Below are positions 869 through 64,000 of a DNA stretch of 64,000 nucleotides, piece by piece (within the stretch, counting starts at the first letter, position 1; every line of letters begins with the position of its first letter). The DNA comes from Pengzhenrongella sicca (GTDB lineage Bacteria; Actinomycetota; Actinomycetes; Actinomycetales; Cellulomonadaceae). The position numbers and the translations under genes were made by a program. The stretch lies in NCBI RefSeq assembly GCF_017569225.1, contig NZ_CP071868.1, positions 2,294,001 to 2,358,000 on the forward strand, read 5' to 3'. The notes beneath the pieces are model-generated. The model made no database searches, was not told the origin of the DNA, and worked only from the letters and a program-made list of their open reading frames with translations.

Positions 869-1013
869 CGCGCCCTGCGGGCGACGCGCCGGCGGCCGCC
901 GCGGGCGACACGCGGCGACACACCCTTGCGACACGCCGCGAACGACATGCCGATCGTGCGCGGGCCCGCCCGGCTGACCTGGACGGACGTCACTGAACTG
1001 GGGGAACGTCGCC

Positions 1014-1041
1014 TTGACACCCCTGCTGTACCCGGTAGGTT
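1014..1041 (+). promoter_or_regulatory. Sigma70-type promoter for lnt
   Basis: A perfect -35 TTGACA (1014-1019) is followed after 16 bases by TAGGTT (1036-1041), a good actinobacterial -10. Transcription would start near 1048, about 285 bases before the lnt start codon. It is the best match to a housekeeping promoter in this part of the window. Confidence 0.6.
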
Positions 1042-1047
1042 CACCTT

Positions 1048-1332
1048 CTGTTCCGCCTTTACCGGCGCACAACACGTCCCGTCTCCCAGGCTTCGCCCGG
1101 GAACGAGGCGGGCACCGGCTGGACCCGCGTGTTCAACAGAGAACGGGCACGACCCCTTGCAGGGACGGCGCCTGGTACGAAGGACACGCGGGTCGGTCGG
1201 GCGGTGCGACGGTGGCTCGGGACCGCCTCCGACAGCGTCGTCGCAGGCCCCCGTTCGCTACCCACCTACCTCACCCGCCCCGGTCCGGGCGTCGGGGCTC
1301 TGACCGCCCCGTGCCTGTCGTACCCTTCTCGC
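1048..1332 (+). promoter_or_regulatory. Long structured leader upstream of lnt (no gene seen)
   Basis: The 464 bases between the amidohydrolase stop and the lnt start hold no convincing gene. Downstream of the promoter there is a nested hairpin: CCCGTC (from about 1078) pairs with GGCGGG near 1112, enclosing TCCCAGGC / GCCCGGGA around a TTC loop. A second G/C-rich stem (GGGCG...CGCCC) lies near 1287-1310, just before the start. It does not match any RNA family I can recall. It may be a regulatory 5' UTR or a small RNA, or simply GC-rich pairing. Confidence 0.35.
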
Positions 1333-2898
1333 GTGCCCCAGCCCGAGCCGAACCGTTGGTGGGCCCTCGGGCTCGCCGCCGCCGGCGGGCTGCTGACCAA
1401 CGCCGCCTTCCCCGACCAGGGCTGGTGGGGCGCCGGCTTCGTCGGCATGGCCCTGCTGTTCCTCGCGCTGCGACGCGACAGCGCCCGCTGGAACGCCCTC
1501 GTCGGCTTCGTGTGGGGGCTCGCCTTCTTTGCCCCGCACATCGAGTGGGCCGACTACGTGGTCGGCCGGGTGCCGTGGGCGGCGCTCACGGTGTTCGAGG
1601 CCCTGTACATCGCGCTCTTCGGCGTGGCCTGGACCTGGGCGCGGCGCGGGCAGGCGATCTGGCGCGGCCCGTGGTTGCAGGCGTCGGCGTTCGTGCTGCT
1701 GTGGGTCGCGATCGAGGAGCTGCGCTCGACGGCTCCGTTCGGGGGATTCCCGTGGGGCCGCCTCGCGTTCTCCCAGGCCGACTCGCCGCTCGCCCGACTC
1801 GCGTGGCTCGGCGGCGCGCCGCTCGTGTCGGCCGCGGTCGCGGCGATCGGGGTGCTCGGCGCGATCTGCCTCCTCGCCGCGCGCCGCCTGCGGATCAGCC
1901 GGACGTTCGCGACCGGCGCCGTCGCCGGCGCTGTGCTCCTCGCGGGCCTCGTGATCCCCCTGGACACCCAGGCGCAGGCCGGCGAGCTCCGGGTCGGCGC
2001 CATCCAGGGGAACGTCCCCACCCCCGGCCTGGACGCGTTCGCGCAGCAGCGTGAGGTGCTGCACAACCACGCCCTCGGCACGCGCGCGCTCCTCGAGCAG
2101 GTCGAACCCGGCGAGCTCGACCTCGTCGTGTGGCCGGAGAACGGCACGGACGTCGACCCGCAGGTCGACGCCGCCGCCGCGGCCGAGATCGACGGCGTCG
2201 CGCGCGCCGTCGACGCCCCGATGCTGGTCGGCACGATCGAGTACCCCGAGACCGGCGGCCGGTACAACACCGCGGTCCTGTGGGTCCCGGGGGAGGGGGT
2301 CGTGGCCCGGTACGCCAAGCAGCACCCCGCCCCGTTCGCGGAGTACATACCGCTGCGCAACCTCGTGCGGCCGTTCTCCTCGGCCGTCGACCTCGTGCGC
2401 AACGACATGATCGCGGGCACGGAGGTCGGCGTCGTGCCGCTCGCCTCCGAGCGGCTCGACCGGACGGTGCCGCTGGGCGACGTCATCTGCTTCGAGGTCG
2501 CCTACGACCCGCTCGTGCGCAACGCCGTCCGCGCGGGCGCCGAGGTGCTGCTCGTCCAGACCAACAACGCGTCGTTCGGTTTCACGGCGGAGTCCACCCA
2601 GCAGCTCGCCATGTCGCGGCTGCGCGCGATCGAGCATGGCCGCGCGACCGTCCAGATCTCGACCGTGGGCGTCAGCGCGGTTATCGCGCCGAACGGTGCC
2701 GTCAGCCAGCGCACCGAGCTGTTCACCGCGGCCCAGCTCGTCGCGCAGCTTCCGCTGCGCACGTCGCAGACGCCCGCGACCGCGATCGGGGACTGGCTCG
2801 CGTGGGGGGTCGACGCGCTCGCGCTGCTGATCCTGACCGCCGGCTGCGTCGGCGCGGCCCGCCTGCGGCGCCCCGACCGAGCGGCGGGGCTGTCGTGA
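1333..2898 (+). CDS. lnt: Apolipoprotein N-acyltransferase
   Basis: The product (521 aa from GTG) adds the third acyl chain to the N-terminal Cys of lipoproteins at the outer face of the membrane. About six hydrophobic segments fill the first 210 residues, followed by a nitrilase-like domain. The catalytic triad is visible: Glu269 (WPENGTD), Lys329 (YAKQHPAPF) and Cys386 (VICFEVAY), with spacing like the E. coli enzyme. A final membrane helix closes the protein. The upstream frame is open to 1129, but the GTG at 1333 gives the family N-terminus. The stop overlaps the GTG of the next gene by four bases. In mycobacteria this domain and the next gene are fused as Ppm1. Confidence 0.92.
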   Translation: MPQPEPNRWWALGLAAAGGLLTNAAFPDQGWWGAGFVGMALLFLALRRDSARWNALVGFVWGLAFFAPHIEWADYVVGRVPWAALTVFEALYIALFGVAWTWARRGQAIWRGPWLQASAFVLLWVAIEELRSTAPFGGFPWGRLAFSQADSPLARLAWLGGAPLVSAAVAAIGVLGAICLLAARRLRISRTFATGAVAGAVLLAGLVIPLDTQAQAGELRVGAIQGNVPTPGLDAFAQQREVLHNHALGTRALLEQVEPGELDLVVWPENGTDVDPQVDAAAAAEIDGVARAVDAPMLVGTIEYPETGGRYNTAVLWVPGEGVVARYAKQHPAPFAEYIPLRNLVRPFSSAVDLVRNDMIAGTEVGVVPLASERLDRTVPLGDVICFEVAYDPLVRNAVRAGAEVLLVQTNNASFGFTAESTQQLAMSRLRAIEHGRATVQISTVGVSAVIAPNGAVSQRTELFTAAQLVAQLPLRTSQTPATAIGDWLAWGVDALALLILTAGCVGAARLRRPDRAAGLS

Positions 2899-3680
2899 CG
2901 GCCGCCGTCGCGACCACGACCGTCGTGATCATCCCGACCTACAACGAGCGCGATGCGCTGCCGGTGACCCTCGCGCGGCTGCGCGCCGCCGTACCGGCCG
3001 CCGACGTGCTCGTGGTCGACGACGACAGCCCCGACGGCACCGGCGAGCTCGCCGACCGGTGCGCCGCCGACGACGTCGCCGTCCACGTGCTCCACCGCAC
3101 CGGGGAGCGGGGGCTGGGTCGCGCGTACGTCGCCGGCTTCCGCTGGGCCCTCGCCCGCGGCTACGACGTCGTGGTCGAGATGGACGCGGACGGCTCGCAC
3201 CGCGCGCAGGACCTGCCCCGCCTGCTCGCGGCGGTGCCCGGCGCCGACCTGGTCCTGGGCTCGCGCTGGGTCCCGGGCGGCAAGGTCGTCAACTGGCCGC
3301 GCCGGCGGATGCTCCTGTCCCGCGCGGGAACGACGTACACACGGCTGCTGCTCGGCCTGCCGCTGCACGACGCGACGGGCGGCTTCCGCGCCTACGACGC
3401 GCGCGCGCTGGCTCGCCTCGACCTGGACGCGGTCGCCTCCCGCGGCTACTGCTTCCAGGTCGACATGGCCTGGCGCGTCGTACGGGCGGGCGGCACGGTC
3501 GTCGAGGTGCCGATCACGTTCGTGGAACGGGAGCAGGGCACGTCGAAGATGAGCCGGGAGATCGTGGTCGAGGCGCTCGCCCGCATCACCGCGTGGGGCG
3601 TGCAGCACCGCGCGCGGCAGCTCGGGCGCGGCGCGCGCGCGCTGGGCGCGAAGGTGCGCTCGTCCGTGCCGCGGCGTTGA
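2895..3680 (+). CDS. ppm: Polyprenol monophosphomannose synthase (GT2 family)
   Basis: This 261-aa glycosyltransferase should transfer mannose from GDP-mannose to polyprenyl phosphate, supplying the donor for lipoglycan and protein mannosylation. The N-terminus IIPTYNERDALP, the VVDDDSPDGTG nucleotide-sugar motif, the EMDADGSH (DXD) metal site and the GSRWVPGG and QGTSKMS motifs are diagnostic of DPM1-type enzymes. There is no C-terminal membrane domain, as in other bacterial Dpm1-like forms. The GTG start overlaps the lnt stop (GTGA), implying translational coupling with lnt, its fusion partner in Mycobacterium. Confidence 0.93.
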   Translation: MTAAVATTTVVIIPTYNERDALPVTLARLRAAVPAADVLVVDDDSPDGTGELADRCAADDVAVHVLHRTGERGLGRAYVAGFRWALARGYDVVVEMDADGSHRAQDLPRLLAAVPGADLVLGSRWVPGGKVVNWPRRRMLLSRAGTTYTRLLLGLPLHDATGGFRAYDARALARLDLDAVASRGYCFQVDMAWRVVRAGGTVVEVPITFVEREQGTSKMSREIVVEALARITAWGVQHRARQLGRGARALGAKVRSSVPRR

Positions 3681-3734
3681 CGCGAGTCGTCGCGGCGCTA
3701 GTCGTCGCGGCGCCGACGCGGGTCGTCCCGTAAC

Positions 3735-3788
3735 GCACACCGTCCGGGGTGCGACGGCCTCTCGGACGTCACACCCCGGACGGTGTGC
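3735..3788. terminator. 17-bp perfect inverted repeat between convergent genes
   Basis: Arms 3735-3751 and 3772-3788 are exact reverse complements (17 of 17) with a 20-base loop. They lie between the end of ppm (+) and the end of rbpA (-). There is no U-tract, which is common for actinobacterial terminators. It probably acts in both directions. Confidence 0.65.
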
Positions 3789-3876
3789 CGACGTTCTGTG
3801 TGAACGGCGGGTCAGGCGCGGGCGCTCAGATGCGAGCCCCCGGTGCCGCTGGACCTGAACTCAGGCCCGGCGGCGA

Positions 3877-4221
3877 TCACGCACTGCGGCGAAGCTTGCC
3901 CGCACGGAGCAGATCGAGGCGCTCCTCAAGCAGCTCTTCGAGCTCCTTGACCGTGCGCCGCTCCAGGAGCATGTCCCAGTGCGTGCGCGGCTTCTTCCCA
4001 GCCTTGGGCTCGGGCCGTGAGGCGTCGCGCAGGAGCGCTTCCTCACCGCACCGGCACTCCCAGACCAGCGGCACGTCGGCCTCGGTCGAGAAGGGCAGGA
4101 TGATCGTGTGCCCGTTGGGGCAGTCGTAGTGCGCCCGGAGCCGGGGAGCGAATTCCACGCCCTCTTCCGTCTCCAAGCTATTGGAACCGATGCGCATTCC
4201 GCGCAGGGATCGGTTCGCCAT
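3877..4221 (-). CDS. rbpA: RNA polymerase-binding protein RbpA
   Basis: RbpA (114 aa) binds the primary sigma factor and RNA polymerase and stabilises open complexes. The N-terminal tail MANRSLRGMRIG, the zinc site CPNGH plus CRC (as in Streptomyces RbpA), the basic linker (RPEPKAGKKPRTHWDM) and the C-terminal sigma-interaction helix (LLERRTVKELEELLEERL) are all present. The ATG at 4221 is preceded by GGAGGT at a 5-base spacing. A longer frame runs upstream to 4461, but it would contain the promoter, so the short form is chosen. A SigR-type promoter lies just upstream. Confidence 0.97.
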   Translation of the reverse strand: MANRSLRGMRIGSNSLETEEGVEFAPRLRAHYDCPNGHTIILPFSTEADVPLVWECRCGEEALLRDASRPEPKAGKKPRTHWDMLLERRTVKELEELLEERLDLLRAGKLRRSA

Positions 4222-4269
4222 CAGGACCTCCGTGGTGCCGTCATTGACTAATGCTCTACCGTGGTGTTC

Positions 4270-4295
4270 AACGCGCGTAACCTCGCCAGTGTTCC
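4270..4295 (-). promoter_or_regulatory. SigR/SigH-type (oxidative stress) promoter of rbpA
   Basis: On the minus strand GGAAC (4295-4291) is followed by exactly 18 bases and GTT (4272-4270). This matches the SigR consensus GGGAAY-N18-GTT. The predicted start is about 40 bases before the rbpA ATG. rbpA is a known SigR target in Streptomyces coelicolor, which supports the match. The rest of 4296-4552 shows no gene or clear signal. Confidence 0.7.
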
Positions 4296-4552
4296 TGGTC
4301 GAGGTGAAGGTCCCGTGAAGGCCGGTCGGTGACCGTGGCTCGGGATCCGAGAGGGGCGTCTGCCGCGCACGATGGTGCGCAGCCGGGGCCTTCGTTCCAT
4401 GGTGACGGGTGCAGGGCAGTAGCCGCAAATCTGTGCGTGTGACGCTCGACTCGTTGCCCATGCCGCGGCGACCGCGGCCAGCCGCTTCCCAGTCGCCGGC
4501 TCGTTGCCTTCCCCTCAGGGCGGCGGCCCGCGGCCCACGCCCGGCCGCACGC

Positions 4553-5074
4553 TCACCTCCGGGGCGTCGGGAGCACGCGGGAGCGGTCTCGGCCGATCGC
4601 GACCACCGCCCGCACGGGCACCCCGACCTGGGTCAACGCCTCGACCAATGCGGTCGACCACCCGATCTCGAACGTGCCCCGATCGCCCCCGCCGCGCCGC
4701 ACGAGCGCGACCGCGACGCTGCCGCCGGGCGCATTTCGGCCGAGGACGATGCGCAGGGTCCGTGCGAGCTGGACGACCAGCGCCCGATCCGCGATCGTCG
4801 GGACGTCGCCGATCGGCAGCACGAACGGCGTAGCGCGGCGGTCCCGGTCGAGGAGCAGCACCCAGACCGCGGGCGGGCCACCCCGCTCGGGCCCGACGAG
4901 CCTGAGCAGAAGCTCGTGCACCTCCTCGTCCGACGCGAGCAGGCTCCCCGGTGGCCCCGGGGCCACCCCGAAACCCTCAAGGTTGTCCTCGAACTCGCCT
5001 TCACGGTCGTCCTCGAACTCGTCCTCGAAGTCGTCCTCGAGCTCGTCATCCCAGCTGTCGTCGAAGGTCGTCAT
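4553..5074 (-). CDS. Hypothetical protein with acidic N-terminal repeats
   Basis: I do not recognise this 173-aa protein. Residues 4-32 are almost entirely Asp/Glu/Phe in a repeated (E/D)DEFED pattern, encoded by direct DNA repeats at about 4983-5060. The rest looks like a compact alpha/beta domain with hydrophobic strands (AVWVLLLD, ALVVQLARTLRIVL, GSVAVALV, VRAVVAIGR) and no obvious catalytic motif. Codon usage matches the neighbours. It lies upstream of rbpA on the same strand but is separated by 330 bases containing the rbpA promoter. No signal peptide is seen. Confidence 0.6.
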   Translation of the reverse strand: MTTFDDSWDDELEDDFEDEFEDDREGEFEDNLEGFGVAPGPPGSLLASDEEVHELLLRLVGPERGGPPAVWVLLLDRDRRATPFVLPIGDVPTIADRALVVQLARTLRIVLGRNAPGGSVAVALVRRGGGDRGTFEIGWSTALVEALTQVGVPVRAVVAIGRDRSRVLPTPRR

Positions 5075-5192
5075 CGCCCCACCCTCGCGCCGCGCCGAGG
5101 CGGGCGCGCGCCCTCCGCGCCGACCTGTGGACAGCCGCCGCGACCGGGCGGCTGGGGGTGGGTGAGGGTGAGGACCGGGCGAGCCGGGTCGG

Positions 5193-7268
5193 CTACAGCT
5201 CGGGGTGGCCGGGCCGGGAGAGCACGACGCCGTCCGTGAACATCACGCCGTCCGCGAAGCGCGCCTCGACGCGGCCCCCGCCGAACTGCTCGGCGTACAG
5301 CCGGGCGTACAGGCCGTCCCGCTCCGCGACGAGCTCGTCGTGGGTGCCACGTTCGACGACGCGGCCCTCGTCCACCACGAAGATGACGTCCGCGTGCCGG
5401 ATCGTGGACAGGCGGTGCGCGATCGCGAGCGTCGTGCGCGCGGTCATCGCCTGGGCGAGCGCCTGCTGGACGAGGCGCTCGGACGAGGAGTCGAGCGCCG
5501 ACGTGGCCTCGTCGAGGATGAGGACGCGGGGGTCCTTGAGCAGCACGCGCGCGATCGCGACGCGCTGCTTCTCCCCGCCCGAGAGCCGGTACCCGCGCTC
5601 GCCGACAGTCGTGGCGTAGCCGTCCGCGAACCCCACGATCCGGTCGTGGATGTTCGCCGCGCGGCACGCGTCCTCGAGCTCGGCGTCGGTGGCGTCCGGC
5701 CGGGCGTAGCGGAGGTTGTCGGCGATCGAGGCGTGGAAGAGGTACGGATCCTGGGTGACCATGCCGACGACGTCGGCCAACGACCCCTGGGTCACGTCCC
5801 GCACGTCGAGGCCGTCGATCCGGACCGCGCCCCGGTCCACCTCGTACAACCGGGGGATGAGGTAGCTCAAGGTCGTCTTGCCCGCGCCCGACGGCCCGAC
5901 GAACGCCGCGAGCTGGCCCGGCTCGACCACGAACGAGGTGTCCCGCACGGCCCACCGCCGCCGCGTCGGCGCCGCCGCGGTGCCGTCCACCCCACGGCCA
6001 TCCAACGCAGCCGCGCCGTCCCGGTCGGCGGCGGGGCGCGCGACGACACCCCCAAGCCCCGACCCGTGCCCGCCGCCGAGGCCGTACCCGACGCCGACGG
6101 CGTTGCCCCCGCCCCGGAAGCGGACCGGCCCCGGGATCGGTGCGGGCGTGCGCAGCAGCGGGGGAGGGGGGTAGGCGAACCAGACGTCCTCGAGTTCGAT
6201 GCGCCCACGCACGTCGTGGGGGTCGAGCACGGTGGCGCCGGGCCGGTCGGTGATCGCGGGGGACAGGTCGAGGTACTCGAAGATCCGGCGGAACAGCGCG
6301 AGCGAGGTCTGGACGTCCAGCGCCACGCGCATCAGCGAGAGCATCGGCATGAGCAGCCGCGCCTGGAGCGTCGAGAACGCCACGAGCGTCCCGGCGGTCA
6401 GCATCGCGGCGCCCGCGCCGCCCGAGAGCGTGTACCCGGCGGCCAGGTAGACGAGCGCCGGCGTGATCGCCATGAACGCCGTCACGACCCCGAAGAAGCC
6501 CTGGCCCGCCATCGCCTGGCGCACCTGGAGCGTGACCTGCCGGTCGTTCTCGACGCGGTACCGCGCGACCTCGGCGTCGGCCCGGTTGAAGATCTTGGCC
6601 AGCAGGATGCCGGAGACGCTCAGCGCCTCCTGGGTGATCGCGGTCATGTCCGACAGCGACTCCTGGGTCGCCCGCGCGATCCGCTGCCGCCGCGCGCCGA
6701 CCCGCCGCTGCAGCACCACGAACACTGGCATGAGCGCGAGCGCGACGAGGGTCAGCTGCCAGCTGAGCAGCACCATCGCGACGACCGACGCGATCACGGT
6801 CACCGAGCTGGACAGGATGGACGACGCCGTCGTGGTCAGGACCGAGCCGACGCCGCCGACGTCGTTGGCCAGGCGCGACTGGATCGAGCCCGTCTTCGTC
6901 CCCGTGAAGAACGCAAGCTCCATCCGCTCGAGATGCCCGAACAGCCGCGCGCGCAGGTCGGCCATCGCGAGGTTGCCGACCTTGGTCGTCAGGTACGTCT
7001 GGCCGACGCCGATGGCGGAGCTGACCAGGGGGATCGCGATCATCGCGGCAGTCAGTCGGGTCAGCAGCGCGAGGTCGACGCCGGACCCGTCGGTCGGGAA
7101 CAGCGCGTCGTCGAACACGCGCCGGGTCAGGAACGGGATGACGACGCCGAGCAGCGAGCTGACGAGGATCGCGACGGCGACCAGCACGAGCCGGCCGCGG
7201 TACGGCGTCAGCAGCGCGCCGATCCGGCGCAGCAGCGCGGGCGAGGCCGGGACCTCGGGTTCGGTCAC
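5193..7268 (-). CDS. ABC exporter, fused membrane and ATPase domains
   Basis: This is a 691-aa type IV half-exporter. Six membrane helices fill about residues 20-320, followed by a nucleotide-binding domain. Walker A is GPSGAGKTT with Lys464, then a Q-loop, the signature LSGGEKQR, Walker B VLILDEATSALD and switch His (IAHRLST). The aromatic A-loop (WFAYPPP, Trp363) lies about 100 residues before Walker A instead of about 30, because of a Gly/Pro-rich insertion of some 70 residues. The GTG start at 7268 overlaps the upstream gene's stop (GTGA); the frame is open further upstream but overlaps that gene. Substrate is unknown; multidrug or lipid export is typical. Confidence 0.88.
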   Translation of the reverse strand: MTEPEVPASPALLRRIGALLTPYRGRLVLVAVAILVSSLLGVVIPFLTRRVFDDALFPTDGSGVDLALLTRLTAAMIAIPLVSSAIGVGQTYLTTKVGNLAMADLRARLFGHLERMELAFFTGTKTGSIQSRLANDVGGVGSVLTTTASSILSSSVTVIASVVAMVLLSWQLTLVALALMPVFVVLQRRVGARRQRIARATQESLSDMTAITQEALSVSGILLAKIFNRADAEVARYRVENDRQVTLQVRQAMAGQGFFGVVTAFMAITPALVYLAAGYTLSGGAGAAMLTAGTLVAFSTLQARLLMPMLSLMRVALDVQTSLALFRRIFEYLDLSPAITDRPGATVLDPHDVRGRIELEDVWFAYPPPPLLRTPAPIPGPVRFRGGGNAVGVGYGLGGGHGSGLGGVVARPAADRDGAAALDGRGVDGTAAAPTRRRWAVRDTSFVVEPGQLAAFVGPSGAGKTTLSYLIPRLYEVDRGAVRIDGLDVRDVTQGSLADVVGMVTQDPYLFHASIADNLRYARPDATDAELEDACRAANIHDRIVGFADGYATTVGERGYRLSGGEKQRVAIARVLLKDPRVLILDEATSALDSSSERLVQQALAQAMTARTTLAIAHRLSTIRHADVIFVVDEGRVVERGTHDELVAERDGLYARLYAEQFGGGRVEARFADGVMFTDGVVLSRPGHPEL

Positions 7269-53406: not shown

Positions 53407-53487
53407 GGTGCCATTCTTCGTCTTTCTAGACGGGACCTATGTCCCGCGCGATTACATTGTTGTCACGGATATTGTTTAGATATCCCC

Positions 53488-53701
53488 GGGCGCCACTGGG
53501 GGTTGCCTCAGATGGATTGCCGCATCCTGCCGCCATCGAAGGTCACTAAAGAAACTCGCTGGCAGGAGCGGGGCTGATCGACGAGTTCGGGCCTCCTCAC
53601 CTCGGAGGTCACCGCAGACGCAACGGCGTGACCGCAATTTCCGCCGCTACGCGTCCTCGGACCGTCGAGCATTCCTCCGCAGGCGCCGGAAAGGCCACCT
53701 C
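53488..53701 (+). promoter_or_regulatory. Diverged ydaO/c-di-AMP-type leader of the SLH-protein gene
   Basis: Segments shared with the conserved ydaO element at 55822: GCCGCATCCTGCC (53519-53531), GGCAGGAGCGGGG (53561-53573), CTCACCTCGGAGGTCACC (53596-53613) and CCGGAAAGGCC (53686-53696), the last containing the ribosome-binding site. The central GGGGTGAAT and GGGCGAAC core motifs are missing. It is therefore a rearranged homologue that may not bind c-di-AMP. Confidence 0.5.
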
Positions 53702-55797: not shown

Positions 55798-55821
55798 GTC
55801 CATCCCCGGGCGCCACCGGGG

Positions 55822-56006
55822 CGCCCGAGGTGGACCGCCGAGTCCTGCCACCACCGAAGGCTCCTATGAATTCTCGCGGCAGGAGCGGGGAACCCAGGTT
55901 TGCGGGCTCAGCACTCAGGTGCCCTTGGGGTGAATCCGGTCGACATGACCGGTAGGGCGAACTCCCGTCCGAACCCGACAGCTCACCTCGTAGGCGACCG
56001 GAGAGG
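55822..56006 (+). ncRNA. Cyclic di-AMP riboswitch (ydaO-yuaA family)
   Basis: The conserved ydaO blocks appear in order: GCCGAGTCCTGCC (55837-55849), GGCAGGAGCGGGGAACC (55878-55894), TTGGGGTGAATCC (55925-55937), GGGCGAACTCCCG (55955-55967) and CCCGACAGCTCACCTCG (55974-55990) followed by TAGGCGACCGG. A 7-bp hairpin GGGCGCC/GGCGCCC (55808-55826) sits at the 5' edge. In actinobacteria this class binds c-di-AMP and lowers expression of cell-wall proteins. GGAGAGG (56000-56006), the ribosome-binding site, overlaps the 3' end, so control of translation is likely. Confidence 0.9.
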
Positions 56007-56011
56007 CCCTG

Positions 56012-57481
56012 ATGCCCCAATTCCTTGATTCCGCACGCCCGCGCGTGCCGGCCGAACGCCGTGCGTTCGCGCCCGCCGAACCGGCAATCCCCGCCGGCAA
56101 GATCTCCGTCCTCGGGCGCCGTTCGGTGACGTCCGTCCTGGTCTCGGGACTGATCGTCACGATGTTCACGTCGCCCACCTTCGCGGCTCCGGTCACTTCC
56201 TCGGACCGTGCCAGCCGCCCGCAGTCGGCAGAGGTCGCCGGGCGGGAACGCCCGGCGTCGTCCCTGCTGTACCGCTCGTCCGCCTCCCGATTCGGGACCT
56301 GGTCGACGCCGTGGACGTTCGACCACACCGTCGTGCGCGTCACCCCCGACCCCGCGCCGGCCCCGCCCGCCTCCCCCGAGCCCGACCCCGACCCCGACGA
56401 GAGCGACCTGACCGGCACGGCGGCGGACGTCGCACTGGTCGACGAGTCGCCCATCGACGACGCGGCCGCCGACGCCGCGCTCGCCGAGGCCGCCGCCACG
56501 GAGGCCGAGCCCACGGCCGAGGAACTCGCCGAGGACGAGCTGTCCCTGTCCGCCGACCTGTCGGCGACCGGGCTCGCTCAGACCGACGCGGCCGGCGCGA
56601 CGGCCGCGGCGACCCGCGTCGCCACGTACCACCCGTTCGCCATCAGCGCGCCCGCCAACATCTCCCTCGGGTCGGGCGCCAAGTTCGAGAGCTCGTCGTC
56701 AACCCGGACGGCCGCCTTCCTCCGAGGTACGCCCGTGATCAACCACACGACCTGGACGATCGCCACGGCCATCGCGACGTCGTCCTCTCCCCTGGCCAAG
56801 GTGAAGAACCTCAAGACGGGCGTCACCACGACCATCCGGATCCCCAGCACGGCCAAGTCGACGAACGACTCCGACAAGGCCATGACAGTCATCCAGCCCG
56901 ACGGCTACACCGCGTACGAGTGCTACAAGATGACGAAGGTCGGCACGAACTCCTGGACCACGACCTCGATGGTCAAGCAAGACCTGCGCAGCACCGGCCT
57001 CGCGGTCGGCACCCGCGCGTCGGGCGTGAGCCAGCTCATGGGCCTCATCCGGGCGAAGGAGGTCGCAGCGAAGAAGATCCCGCACACGATCGCGATCGCC
57101 ATCCCCGACGCGATGCTCAAGACCGGGTACGTATGGCCGGCCCGCCGCCAGGACTCCAACGCGAGCAGCGCGTACAAGGGCCAGGTGCCCATGGGGACGA
57201 TGCTCGCGATCCCGCCGAGCGTCAACGTCTCCTCGCTCGGGCTCTCGGCTGAGGGCCTCGCGCTGGCTCGCGCGCTGCAGGACTACGGCGGCCACATCGT
57301 CGAACGTGCCGGCATGGTCGCGCTGTACGCCGAGCCGTCCGCGGACGCGGCGGCGATCGCGCGCATGAAGGTCGACTGGCGCAAGCTGTACCCGCTGATG
57401 CGGGTCGTCACGAACAACACGTCGACCAACATCGGCGGCGGCGGCACCCGCCGGCAGCCGGCAGCCGGCGCGCTGCAGTAG
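56012..57481 (+). CDS. Secreted protein with acidic linker and the paralogous unknown domain
   Basis: The 489-aa protein has a long basic N-terminus and a hydrophobic export signal (VTSVLVSGLIVTMFTSPTFAA, about residues 39-59). An acidic Pro/Asp/Ala/Glu-rich linker (about 110-185) and one copy of the unknown domain (about 205-485) follow: YHPFAISAPANISLGSGAKF, WPARRQDSN, AIPPSVNVSSLGLSAEGLAL, TNIGGGGTRRQPA. It is clearly paralogous to the 53702 product but lacks FN3 and SLH domains. Expression should respond to c-di-AMP through the upstream riboswitch. ATG is five bases after GGAGAGG. Confidence 0.83.
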   Translation: MPQFLDSARPRVPAERRAFAPAEPAIPAGKISVLGRRSVTSVLVSGLIVTMFTSPTFAAPVTSSDRASRPQSAEVAGRERPASSLLYRSSASRFGTWSTPWTFDHTVVRVTPDPAPAPPASPEPDPDPDESDLTGTAADVALVDESPIDDAAADAALAEAAATEAEPTAEELAEDELSLSADLSATGLAQTDAAGATAAATRVATYHPFAISAPANISLGSGAKFESSSSTRTAAFLRGTPVINHTTWTIATAIATSSSPLAKVKNLKTGVTTTIRIPSTAKSTNDSDKAMTVIQPDGYTAYECYKMTKVGTNSWTTTSMVKQDLRSTGLAVGTRASGVSQLMGLIRAKEVAAKKIPHTIAIAIPDAMLKTGYVWPARRQDSNASSAYKGQVPMGTMLAIPPSVNVSSLGLSAEGLALARALQDYGGHIVERAGMVALYAEPSADAAAIARMKVDWRKLYPLMRVVTNNTSTNIGGGGTRRQPAAGALQ

Positions 57482-63533: not shown

Positions 63534-63537
63534 CCGA

Positions 63538-63618
63538 CCGGCAACGGCAAACCCGTCGCAAGGCGGGGACGCACAGCCACGGGACCCTCCGGGTCAGCCG
63601 GGCTCCCGAGGGAAGGAT
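63538..63618 (+). ncRNA. Cyclic di-GMP-I riboswitch (GEMM)
   Basis: The GEMM-I core is clear. CCGGC (63538-63542) pairs with GCCGG (63597-63601) to close the aptamer. GGCAAACC leads into a 6-bp stem capped by a GCAA tetraloop (CCCGTC-GCAA-GGCGGG, 63552-63567). GGACGCACAGCC and a second stem (GACCC-TCC-GGGTC) follow. The 3' side contains TCCC-GA-GGGA next to the ribosome-binding GGAAGGA (63611-63617), suggesting translational control. It precedes an EAL phosphodiesterase gene, so c-di-GMP would control its own breakdown. Confidence 0.87.
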
Positions 63619-63624
63619 CACCCG

Positions 63625-64000
63625 GTGCGCAGGCGGACCGATGGAACGTTGCCGACACAGGGCCGGCAGCCGGCCGGCCAGGCCGCCGACGCGGTGTTCG
63701 AGCGTGAGCTCGCCGCGGCCGTCTCGCGCGGGGAGCTCGTGGTGCACTACCAACCGGTGCTGTCGCTGCCGTCTCGCCGGTGCACCGCCGTCGAGGCGCT
63801 GGTGCGCTGGGTGCACCCGCGCCACGGACTGCTCCTGCCGGACGCGTTCATCCCGGTCGCCGAGCGGACCGGCGCGATCGCCGCGATCGGCTCGTTCGTT
63901 TTGCGCCGCTCGTGCGCCGACGCGGCGACCTGGCGGGACACCCACCCGGGCTCGCCGCTCGCGCTGCACGTCAACATCTCGGCGCTCCAGCTCCACGACG
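63625..64000 (+). CDS. EAL-domain c-di-GMP phosphodiesterase, 5' part (truncated by window end)
   Basis: The visible 125 residues from GTG at 63625 begin an EAL domain: FERELAAAVSRGELVVHYQP, then VEALVRWVHPRHGLLLPD with the catalytic Glu-Ala-Leu, FIPVAERTGAI and the metal-binding NIS near the end. Completion of the active site lies outside the window. The N-terminus is short and unconserved, with no membrane helix or GGDEF domain before EAL, so it may be a stand-alone EAL enzyme. The upstream riboswitch and GGAAGGA site match this start. Confidence 0.85.
   Translation, partial: MRRRTDGTLPTQGRQPAGQAADAVFERELAAAVSRGELVVHYQPVLSLPSRRCTAVEALVRWVHPRHGLLLPDAFIPVAERTGAIAAIGSFVLRRSCADAATWRDTHPGSPLALHVNISALQLHD

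Follow-up and report, generated by a model that had tools for sequence, protein, structure and literature searches.

A predicted c-di-AMP riboswitch in front of a gene for a probably secreted protein with an unassigned domain in Pengzhenrongella sicca

According to the accessible text of three reports, the targets of actinobacterial c-di-AMP riboswitches are wall hydrolases and Rpf proteins (PMC9960051, PMC8079986, PMC10117811). The riboswitch of nlpC in Corynebacterium glutamicum, which is of the ydaO/yuaA type (RF00379), is described in the available part of PMC9960051 as a c-di-AMP OFF switch acting most likely at the level of translation, and a CTCC-GGAG pseudoknot has been proposed there. 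For rpfA of Streptomyces coelicolor, c-di-AMP binding is reported to terminate transcription, as far as the accessible text of PMC10117811 goes. Complementarity between loop and tail is also present in the crystallised ydaO RNA in PMC5393176, judged by eye from the sequence printed there. A search of the literature outside subscription journals retrieved no report on Cellulomonas c-di-AMP riboswitches.

Here, we analysed a stretch of 64,000 nucleotides from P. sicca (subsequently designated the window), in which a putative riboswitch precedes the gene starting at position 56012 (gene 56012). Like the nlpC type of C. glutamicum, this leader possesses the same aptamer core placed directly before the start codon, an SD sequence in the 3' tail and a CUCC block in the loop, and the signal region of the encoded protein resembles the one found in NlpC/P60 targets of the same bacterial family. 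In contrast to the NlpC/P60 type, the gene 56012 product carries an unassigned domain instead of the catalytic domain, and the helix between loop and SD comprises just 4 bp. Aptamer class and envelope target are also shared with the S. coelicolor rpfA riboswitch, which differs in its lysozyme-like Rpf target and in the transcription termination reported for it in the accessible text of PMC10117811. The reading that we favour, with a probability of roughly 0.7, is that c-di-AMP turns off the translation of gene 56012, whose product would be secreted and carries a new domain, that this arrangement arose through domain exchange from an NlpC/P60 gene and that the paralogues, whose leaders are core-less, have probably escaped c-di-AMP control. 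It builds on the aptamer, the loop-SD complementarity across the family, the likeness of the N-termini, the absence of the NlpC/P60 domain and the core-less paralogue leaders, all of which were computed directly.

The aptamer in the leader of gene 56012

The original prediction had placed a c-di-AMP (ydaO) riboswitch in front of gene 56012. Indeed, cmscan detected RF00379 on the forward strand at 55842-56010 with 70.7 bits (gathering cut-off 38; E 2.1e-14 for the whole window), and the match covers the full model (1-134). The main ydaO sequence blocks, whose presence had likewise been claimed, were all found in the leader, i.e. GGGGUGAA, CCGAACCCG and CAGCU.AC, which a pattern search detected in 115, 113 and 114, respectively, of the 115 distinct family loci. 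Alignment of the leader to the covariance model begins at 55842 with several non-standard pairs marked. When read directly from the sequence, the aptamer starts slightly 5' of the model match, and the predicted start at 55822 fits better than 55842 with the positions of P1 and P2 (Table 1). The labels P1 to P6 were set by eye, guided by what we take to be the ydaO fold. The 5' hairpin ahead of the aptamer contains the CCCGGGCGCCAC block, which also opens the leaders of both paralogues in the leader alignment.

Table 1. Features of the gene 56012 region and of the paralogue leaders. Positions refer to the window unless a locus is named.
Feature	Positions	Strand	Basis and remarks
5' hairpin ahead of aptamer	55805-55830	+	MFE fold; contains CCCGGGCGCCAC block
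c-di-AMP (ydaO) aptamer with pseudoknotted tail	55832-56006	+	RF00379, 70.7 bits; helices by eye
P1	CGCC 55836-55839 / GGCG 55993-55996	+	by eye, letters checked
P2	UCCUGCC 55843-55849 / GGCAGGA 55878-55884	+	by eye, letters checked
P3	55885-55890 / 55986-55991	+	by eye, letters checked
GGGGUGAA block	55927-55934	+	letters checked
P5	55936-55941 / 55947-55952	+	by eye, letters checked
P6	55955-55958 / 55967-55970	+	by eye, letters checked
Anti-SD CUCC in P6 loop	55962-55965	+	can pair with GGAG 56000-56003, 4 bp
CCGAACCCGACAGCU block	55969-55983	+	letters checked
Shine-Dalgarno GGAGAGG	56000-56006	+	sequence; 5 bases 5' of ATG 56012; 3' of P1
Probably secreted protein, 489 aa	56012-57481	+	ORF; N-terminal HMM 40.3 bits; domain alignment
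New ~280-aa domain	56633-57478	+	model pLDDT 87.4; domain alignment
Paralogue with same domain, fn3 and SLH, 624 aa	53702-55576	+	upstream neighbour of 56012
Core-less leader of paralogue 53702	53487-53701	+	5' half homologous to 56012 leader; ligand core lost
Core-less leader of paralogue L005	L005 1104-1317		

MFE folding of the leaders was weakly informative or not informative (z -1.89 and -1.70), the 56012 leader folding no better than its shuffles (z -0.14). In blastn comparisons with the 113 other family leaders, the best nine were 77-81% identical to the 56012 leader over 192-273 nt, among them L003 from the same genome, and the DNA alignments extended beyond position 56040 for only 9 of the 113 subjects. 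The genome, a single contig of 4.395 Mb, contains three RF00379 matches, of which the one in front of gene 56012 has the top score. Judged by its sequence, the riboswitch is thus a standard member of RF00379, for which ligand binding is predicted.

Loop-SD complementarity and mode of control

An overlap of the ribosome-binding site with the aptamer's 3' strand had also been predicted. This holds true in the sense of a pseudoknot, because the SD is located 3' of P1 and contains GGAG, which can base-pair with the CUCC of the P6 loop. Complementarity was assessed across the family between the P6 loop (12 bases) and the 17 nt that follow P1 in 114 of the 115 loci, which gave 98 distinct combinations of loop and tail. 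Their mean duplex energy was -10.82 kcal/mol as compared to -9.92 kcal/mol (sd 0.19) when loops and tails were re-dealt, and none of 10,000 permutations of the 98 distinct pairs equalled the observed value, although re-dealing eliminates the influence of common descent only in part. Cruder measures gave weaker results: the longest run including G-U pairs was equalled in 15 and the longest Watson-Crick run in 182 of 10,000 permutations. In sets thinned to 80 (<90% identity), 28 (<80%) and 5 aptamers (<72%), the counts were 0, 2 and 76 of 10,000, respectively, as compared to 1006 to 6301 of 10,000 for two control segments taken from the same RNAs. The helix in the 56012 leader, with 4 contiguous pairs only, is among the weakest of the set. 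The loop can track SD sequences that deviate from GGAGAGG, as seen for UCUCCU with AGGAGA (L062) and for AUACCUCG with CGAGGUAU (L066). The complementarity at L066 spans eight bases, making this locus a good test case for SD sequestration.

The start codon is located 0-3 nt after the end of the aptamer model in 30 of 43 loci, before it in 12 and 7 nt after it in one. As the tail contains the SD and the start codon is mostly 0-3 nt away, folding stabilised by the ligand should hide the SD directly, and the proximity of the start codon to the aptamer end leaves scant space for a separate expression platform. No terminator-like site was found on the forward strand between 53300 and 57700, and a scan of this strand for consensus promoters yielded no match. 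Control of gene 56012 is likely translational, the switch being turned OFF through SD sequestration. In the mechanism that we infer, including ligand binding and the direction of control, c-di-AMP would bind the 56012 leader; the genome contains one DAC-domain gene (94.2 bits). As the aptamer folds, its P6 loop would pair with the tail, and since the tail is the SD, ribosome loading would be blocked. When c-di-AMP drops, the SD would be released and the 56012 protein would be made alongside the two wall endopeptidases of the NlpC/P60 kind that belong to its regulon. Loop-SD complementarity across the family provides comparative support for the direct SD-sequestration model proposed in C. glutamicum.

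The same switch responding to the same ligand could also act through premature transcription termination, or through both modes, as the accessible text of PMC10117811 reports for S. coelicolor rpfA, and the short loop-SD helix of the 56012 leader would be in line with this. We nevertheless consider termination unlikely, in view of the forward strand devoid of terminator-like sites between 53300 and 57700, the scant platform space at the 30 loci mentioned above, the complementarity found across the family and the translation-level control inferred for nlpC in the available part of PMC9960051. Much less probable still is that the 56012 aptamer is decaying and regulation is gone. Such a fate would match the loss of the core from two of the three leaders of domain genes in this genome, whereas the 56012 leader has intact core blocks, scores highest of the three RF00379 matches and retains 77-81% identity to its nine best counterparts.

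The 489-residue protein and its new domain

RF00379 is commonplace in the taxonomic family, with matches in 218 of its 221 genomes at E<=0.001 (217 above the cut-off). For study, 118 of the RF00379 places detected in the family were taken, of which 115 are distinct, and the target counts concern these; L104, in which the motif pattern was not recovered, was omitted from the loop-SD and target analyses, leaving 114. Pfam NLPC_P60 matched 110 of the 114 riboswitch-linked downstream frames, including those behind the other two RF00379 matches of the P. sicca genome (L002, L003), which precede proteins of the NlpC/P60 kind. This count and the accessible text of PMC9960051, PMC8079986 and PMC10117811 agree with the prior statement that wall hydrolases and Rpf proteins are the usual targets. 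The four frames without NLPC_P60 are gene 56012, L061 and L130, both cut by contig ends, and L156, a broken frame of 77 aa. As the latter three are cut or broken, the 56012 target is the sole clear departure among the 114 frames examined. L151 lacks the DCSG motif, yet its Pfam NLPC_P60 match is present. In seven other genomes bearing the new domain, 10 of 11 RF00379 riboswitches precede a frame with DCSG (two of the 11 are already in the main set). The eleventh is L206 (G156:C527:4384-4542), for which our script called a downstream frame of just 43 aa.

The 489-aa protein consists of a signal and linker region like that of NlpC/P60 targets (residues ~1-130), an acidic low-complexity linker and the new domain (residues ~208-489). 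Its N-terminus, read by eye, suggests that the protein is probably secreted. The NLPC_P60 catalytic domain is absent according to Pfam, and no Pfam or NCBIfam match was obtained at E<=0.1, in keeping with the earlier description of the domain as unassigned. An HMM built from 37 other riboswitch targets matched the N-terminal ~130 residues with 40.3 bits, whereas eight other domain proteins (seven from Cellulomonas, one from a MAG) reached 3.5 bits at most. With an HMM of 113 targets, the 56012 protein had the best score among 1348 ORFs (17.6 bits, E 2.1e-4), followed by an unrelated ORF with 10.7 bits; this match is bias-sensitive (bias ~35, best single stretch 12.6 bits). The alignment is ~120 residues long and covers the GRRS..SGL core and the W-F-D ... 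D-P-x-P linker. We infer an order of events in which gene 56012 was born of domain exchange: an NlpC/P60 gene would have provided the leader and start together with the signal peptide and the first linker, while the catalytic domain would have been swapped for the new domain.

The genome contains three copies of the domain. Across the 221 genomes of the family, 11 have a match at E<=1e-5, with three weak ones among them, and four congeners have no copy. Order-wide, 17 of 396 genomes matched the domain profile at E<=1e-20, two of which had been counted before; among these matches are distant relatives in other families of the order. When relatives were searched, a single domain sequence found nothing, while an alignment query yielded 11 loci, which stem from four Cellulomonas species and one Micrococcales MAG and, as distant matches, from Bradyrhizobium, Rhizobiales and Akkermansia records. 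The Cellulomonas relatives (C. marina, C. humilata, sp. Leaf395 and sp. URHD0024) share 47-56% identity in the domain. Their proteins have the same ~280-aa domain and differ from the 56012 protein in their N-terminal parts, i.e. PKD in one C. marina protein and proline-rich linkers elsewhere, and in lacking RF00379. Lectin-like repeats were seen by eye in other Cellulomonas domain proteins; Pfam finds none.

A profile search of PDB sequences with the domain gave no match at E<=1, and no Pfam-A family exceeded its gathering cut-off, DUF922 alone appearing at E 0.17 (12.4 bits, cut-off 27). In an alignment of 15 domain sequences, N, W, D, R, E and H positions are invariant, which would suit an enzyme, and the domain probably acts on wall or surface glycans. 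A first structure model had a pLDDT of 78.4 and a second, for which three distant relatives were added, 87.4; no firm fold emerged from either. The top structural match of the second model was MltA-like 3czb (Z 4.4, 178 residues, rmsd 5.9), followed by matches to 7esj (MltA; Z 3.4) and to sugarwin, cerato-platanin and barwin (2.1-2.6). Unrelated ATP synthase rows interleave (ATP synthase epsilon, Z 3.9), and Foldseek E-values for the domain models were 0.46 or worse. MltA, expansin, sugarwin, cerato-platanin and barwin share the double-psi beta-barrel. A glycan-active double-psi beta-barrel is a lead suggested by the models, not a result.

Two further alternatives concern the protein itself. 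Its N-terminal likeness to NlpC/P60 targets could reflect convergence of signal peptides, the leader alone being shared or transposed. Upon correction for bias (34-35), the score drops to 17.6 bits, with 12.6 for the best stretch, and DNA alignments pass position 56040 in only 9 of 113 subjects, as such a history would predict; an alignment of ~120 residues including both the GRRS..SGL core and the W-F-D ... D-P-x-P linker, and the scores of at most 3.5 bits for eight other domain proteins, make convergence improbable in our view. We attach somewhat more weight, while still doubting it, to the idea that the domain is a peptidoglycan enzyme with a double-psi beta-barrel similar to MltA or expansin. 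The target would then be just one more wall hydrolase, by which the known regulon is extended in an ordinary way. The ranking of 3czb, 7esj, sugarwin, cerato-platanin and barwin points in this direction, as do MltA and expansins among the structural rows of the first model. However, no Z-score reaches 5, unrelated proteins such as ATP synthase epsilon score about as high, Foldseek E-values are at least 0.46 and a PDB sequence match is lacking at E<=1.

Core-less paralogue leaders and riboswitches at other domain genes

The other two domain genes of the genome are 53702 and L005. The core blocks are missing from their leaders, and RF00379 was undetectable in the 53702 leader at E<=1 and in both at E<=5. 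In comparison with the 56012 leader, the 5' parts are 77.1% (53702; 100 shuffles reached at most 74.3%) and 80.5% (L005; above all 100 shuffles) identical. Identity in the core is 61.4% for 53702 (shuffle mean 61.3%) and 64.5% for L005 (shuffle mean 59.3%), and 68.2% between the two paralogue leaders (shuffle mean 59.6%, maximum 73.7%). The 3' parts are 80.0% (53702; shuffle mean 59.4%, maximum 84.2%) and 73.1% (L005) identical, neither beating the best of 100 shuffles. For comparison, the coding domains of the three genes share 69.7-81.0% DNA identity. In blastn, likeness of the paralogue leaders to other leaders is confined to the 5' half, except for a 22-base piece in the 3' half of L005 (E 0.003, versus L097), which we took as chance or as a peripheral hairpin. 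By eye, the core-less leaders retain P1, P2, P3, the SD and a GGUCAC/GUGACC hairpin, and their cores measure 102 and 100 bases as compared to 96 in the 56012 leader. A hairpin similar to GGUCAC/GUGACC is present by eye in the canonical leader L002. Both core-less leaders have a CAAU block after the hairpin, which was not seen by eye in canonical leaders.

In the simplest reading, ligand control of the core-less leaders was lost after duplication; with the ligand core gone, the paralogue copies are probably no longer controlled by c-di-AMP. The N-termini of 53702 and L005 scored 22.3 and 15.8 bits, respectively, with the 37-target HMM; with the 113-target HMM, L005 reached 3.1 bits (E 6.1) and 53702 was not listed. 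Whether the paralogue signal peptides also derive from NlpC/P60 targets is therefore unsure. In a scan for core-less ydaO leaders in other genomes, which covered 12 of 29 loci, the other 17 being short matches outside the scan, 11 had RF00379 and are thus canonical leaders, and L032, a 34-base match, had none.

The domain is seen behind an RF00379 riboswitch in one genome only. RF00379 was found at the own leader of none of 16 other domain loci, nor in eight further records, most of which represent these genes with more flanking sequence. Among the other domain genomes, seven of ten were compared, and all 11 RF00379 matches are separated from the domain by more than 100 kb or are located on a different contig. 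At 20 distant domain loci of the order, no Rfam family reached its gathering score. One C. marina domain gene (L023, minus strand) has a c-di-GMP-I-GGC riboswitch (62.9 bits) in place of RF00379, immediately 5' of its start; the match at L023 3684-3758 (-) is the same place as L083 1509-1583 (-), and the gene product is the PKD protein with the new domain. This is the one case among 16 loci.

Such cases could mean that cyclic-dinucleotide riboswitches are exchangeable modules of this surface-protein family, responding to c-di-AMP here and to c-di-GMP in C. marina, and that the core-less leaders are ydaO shells re-used for another ligand or none rather than dead; we regard this as quite improbable. 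Within the window, a c-di-GMP-I-GGC riboswitch (63537-63611, forward strand, 61.1 bits) is also located directly 5' of an ORF starting at 63625, whose product has an EAL domain (89.7 bits in Pfam for the portion encoded within the window). The genome contains four c-di-GMP-I-GGC matches, three of them over the cut-off.

With gene 56012, the actinobacterial c-di-AMP regulon would gain a target that is no recognised wall hydrolase. We hypothesize, from the sequence of one gene in one genome, that its product may represent a new class of c-di-AMP-regulated envelope protein. The case shows how a regulated unit of leader and signal may move onto a new protein.
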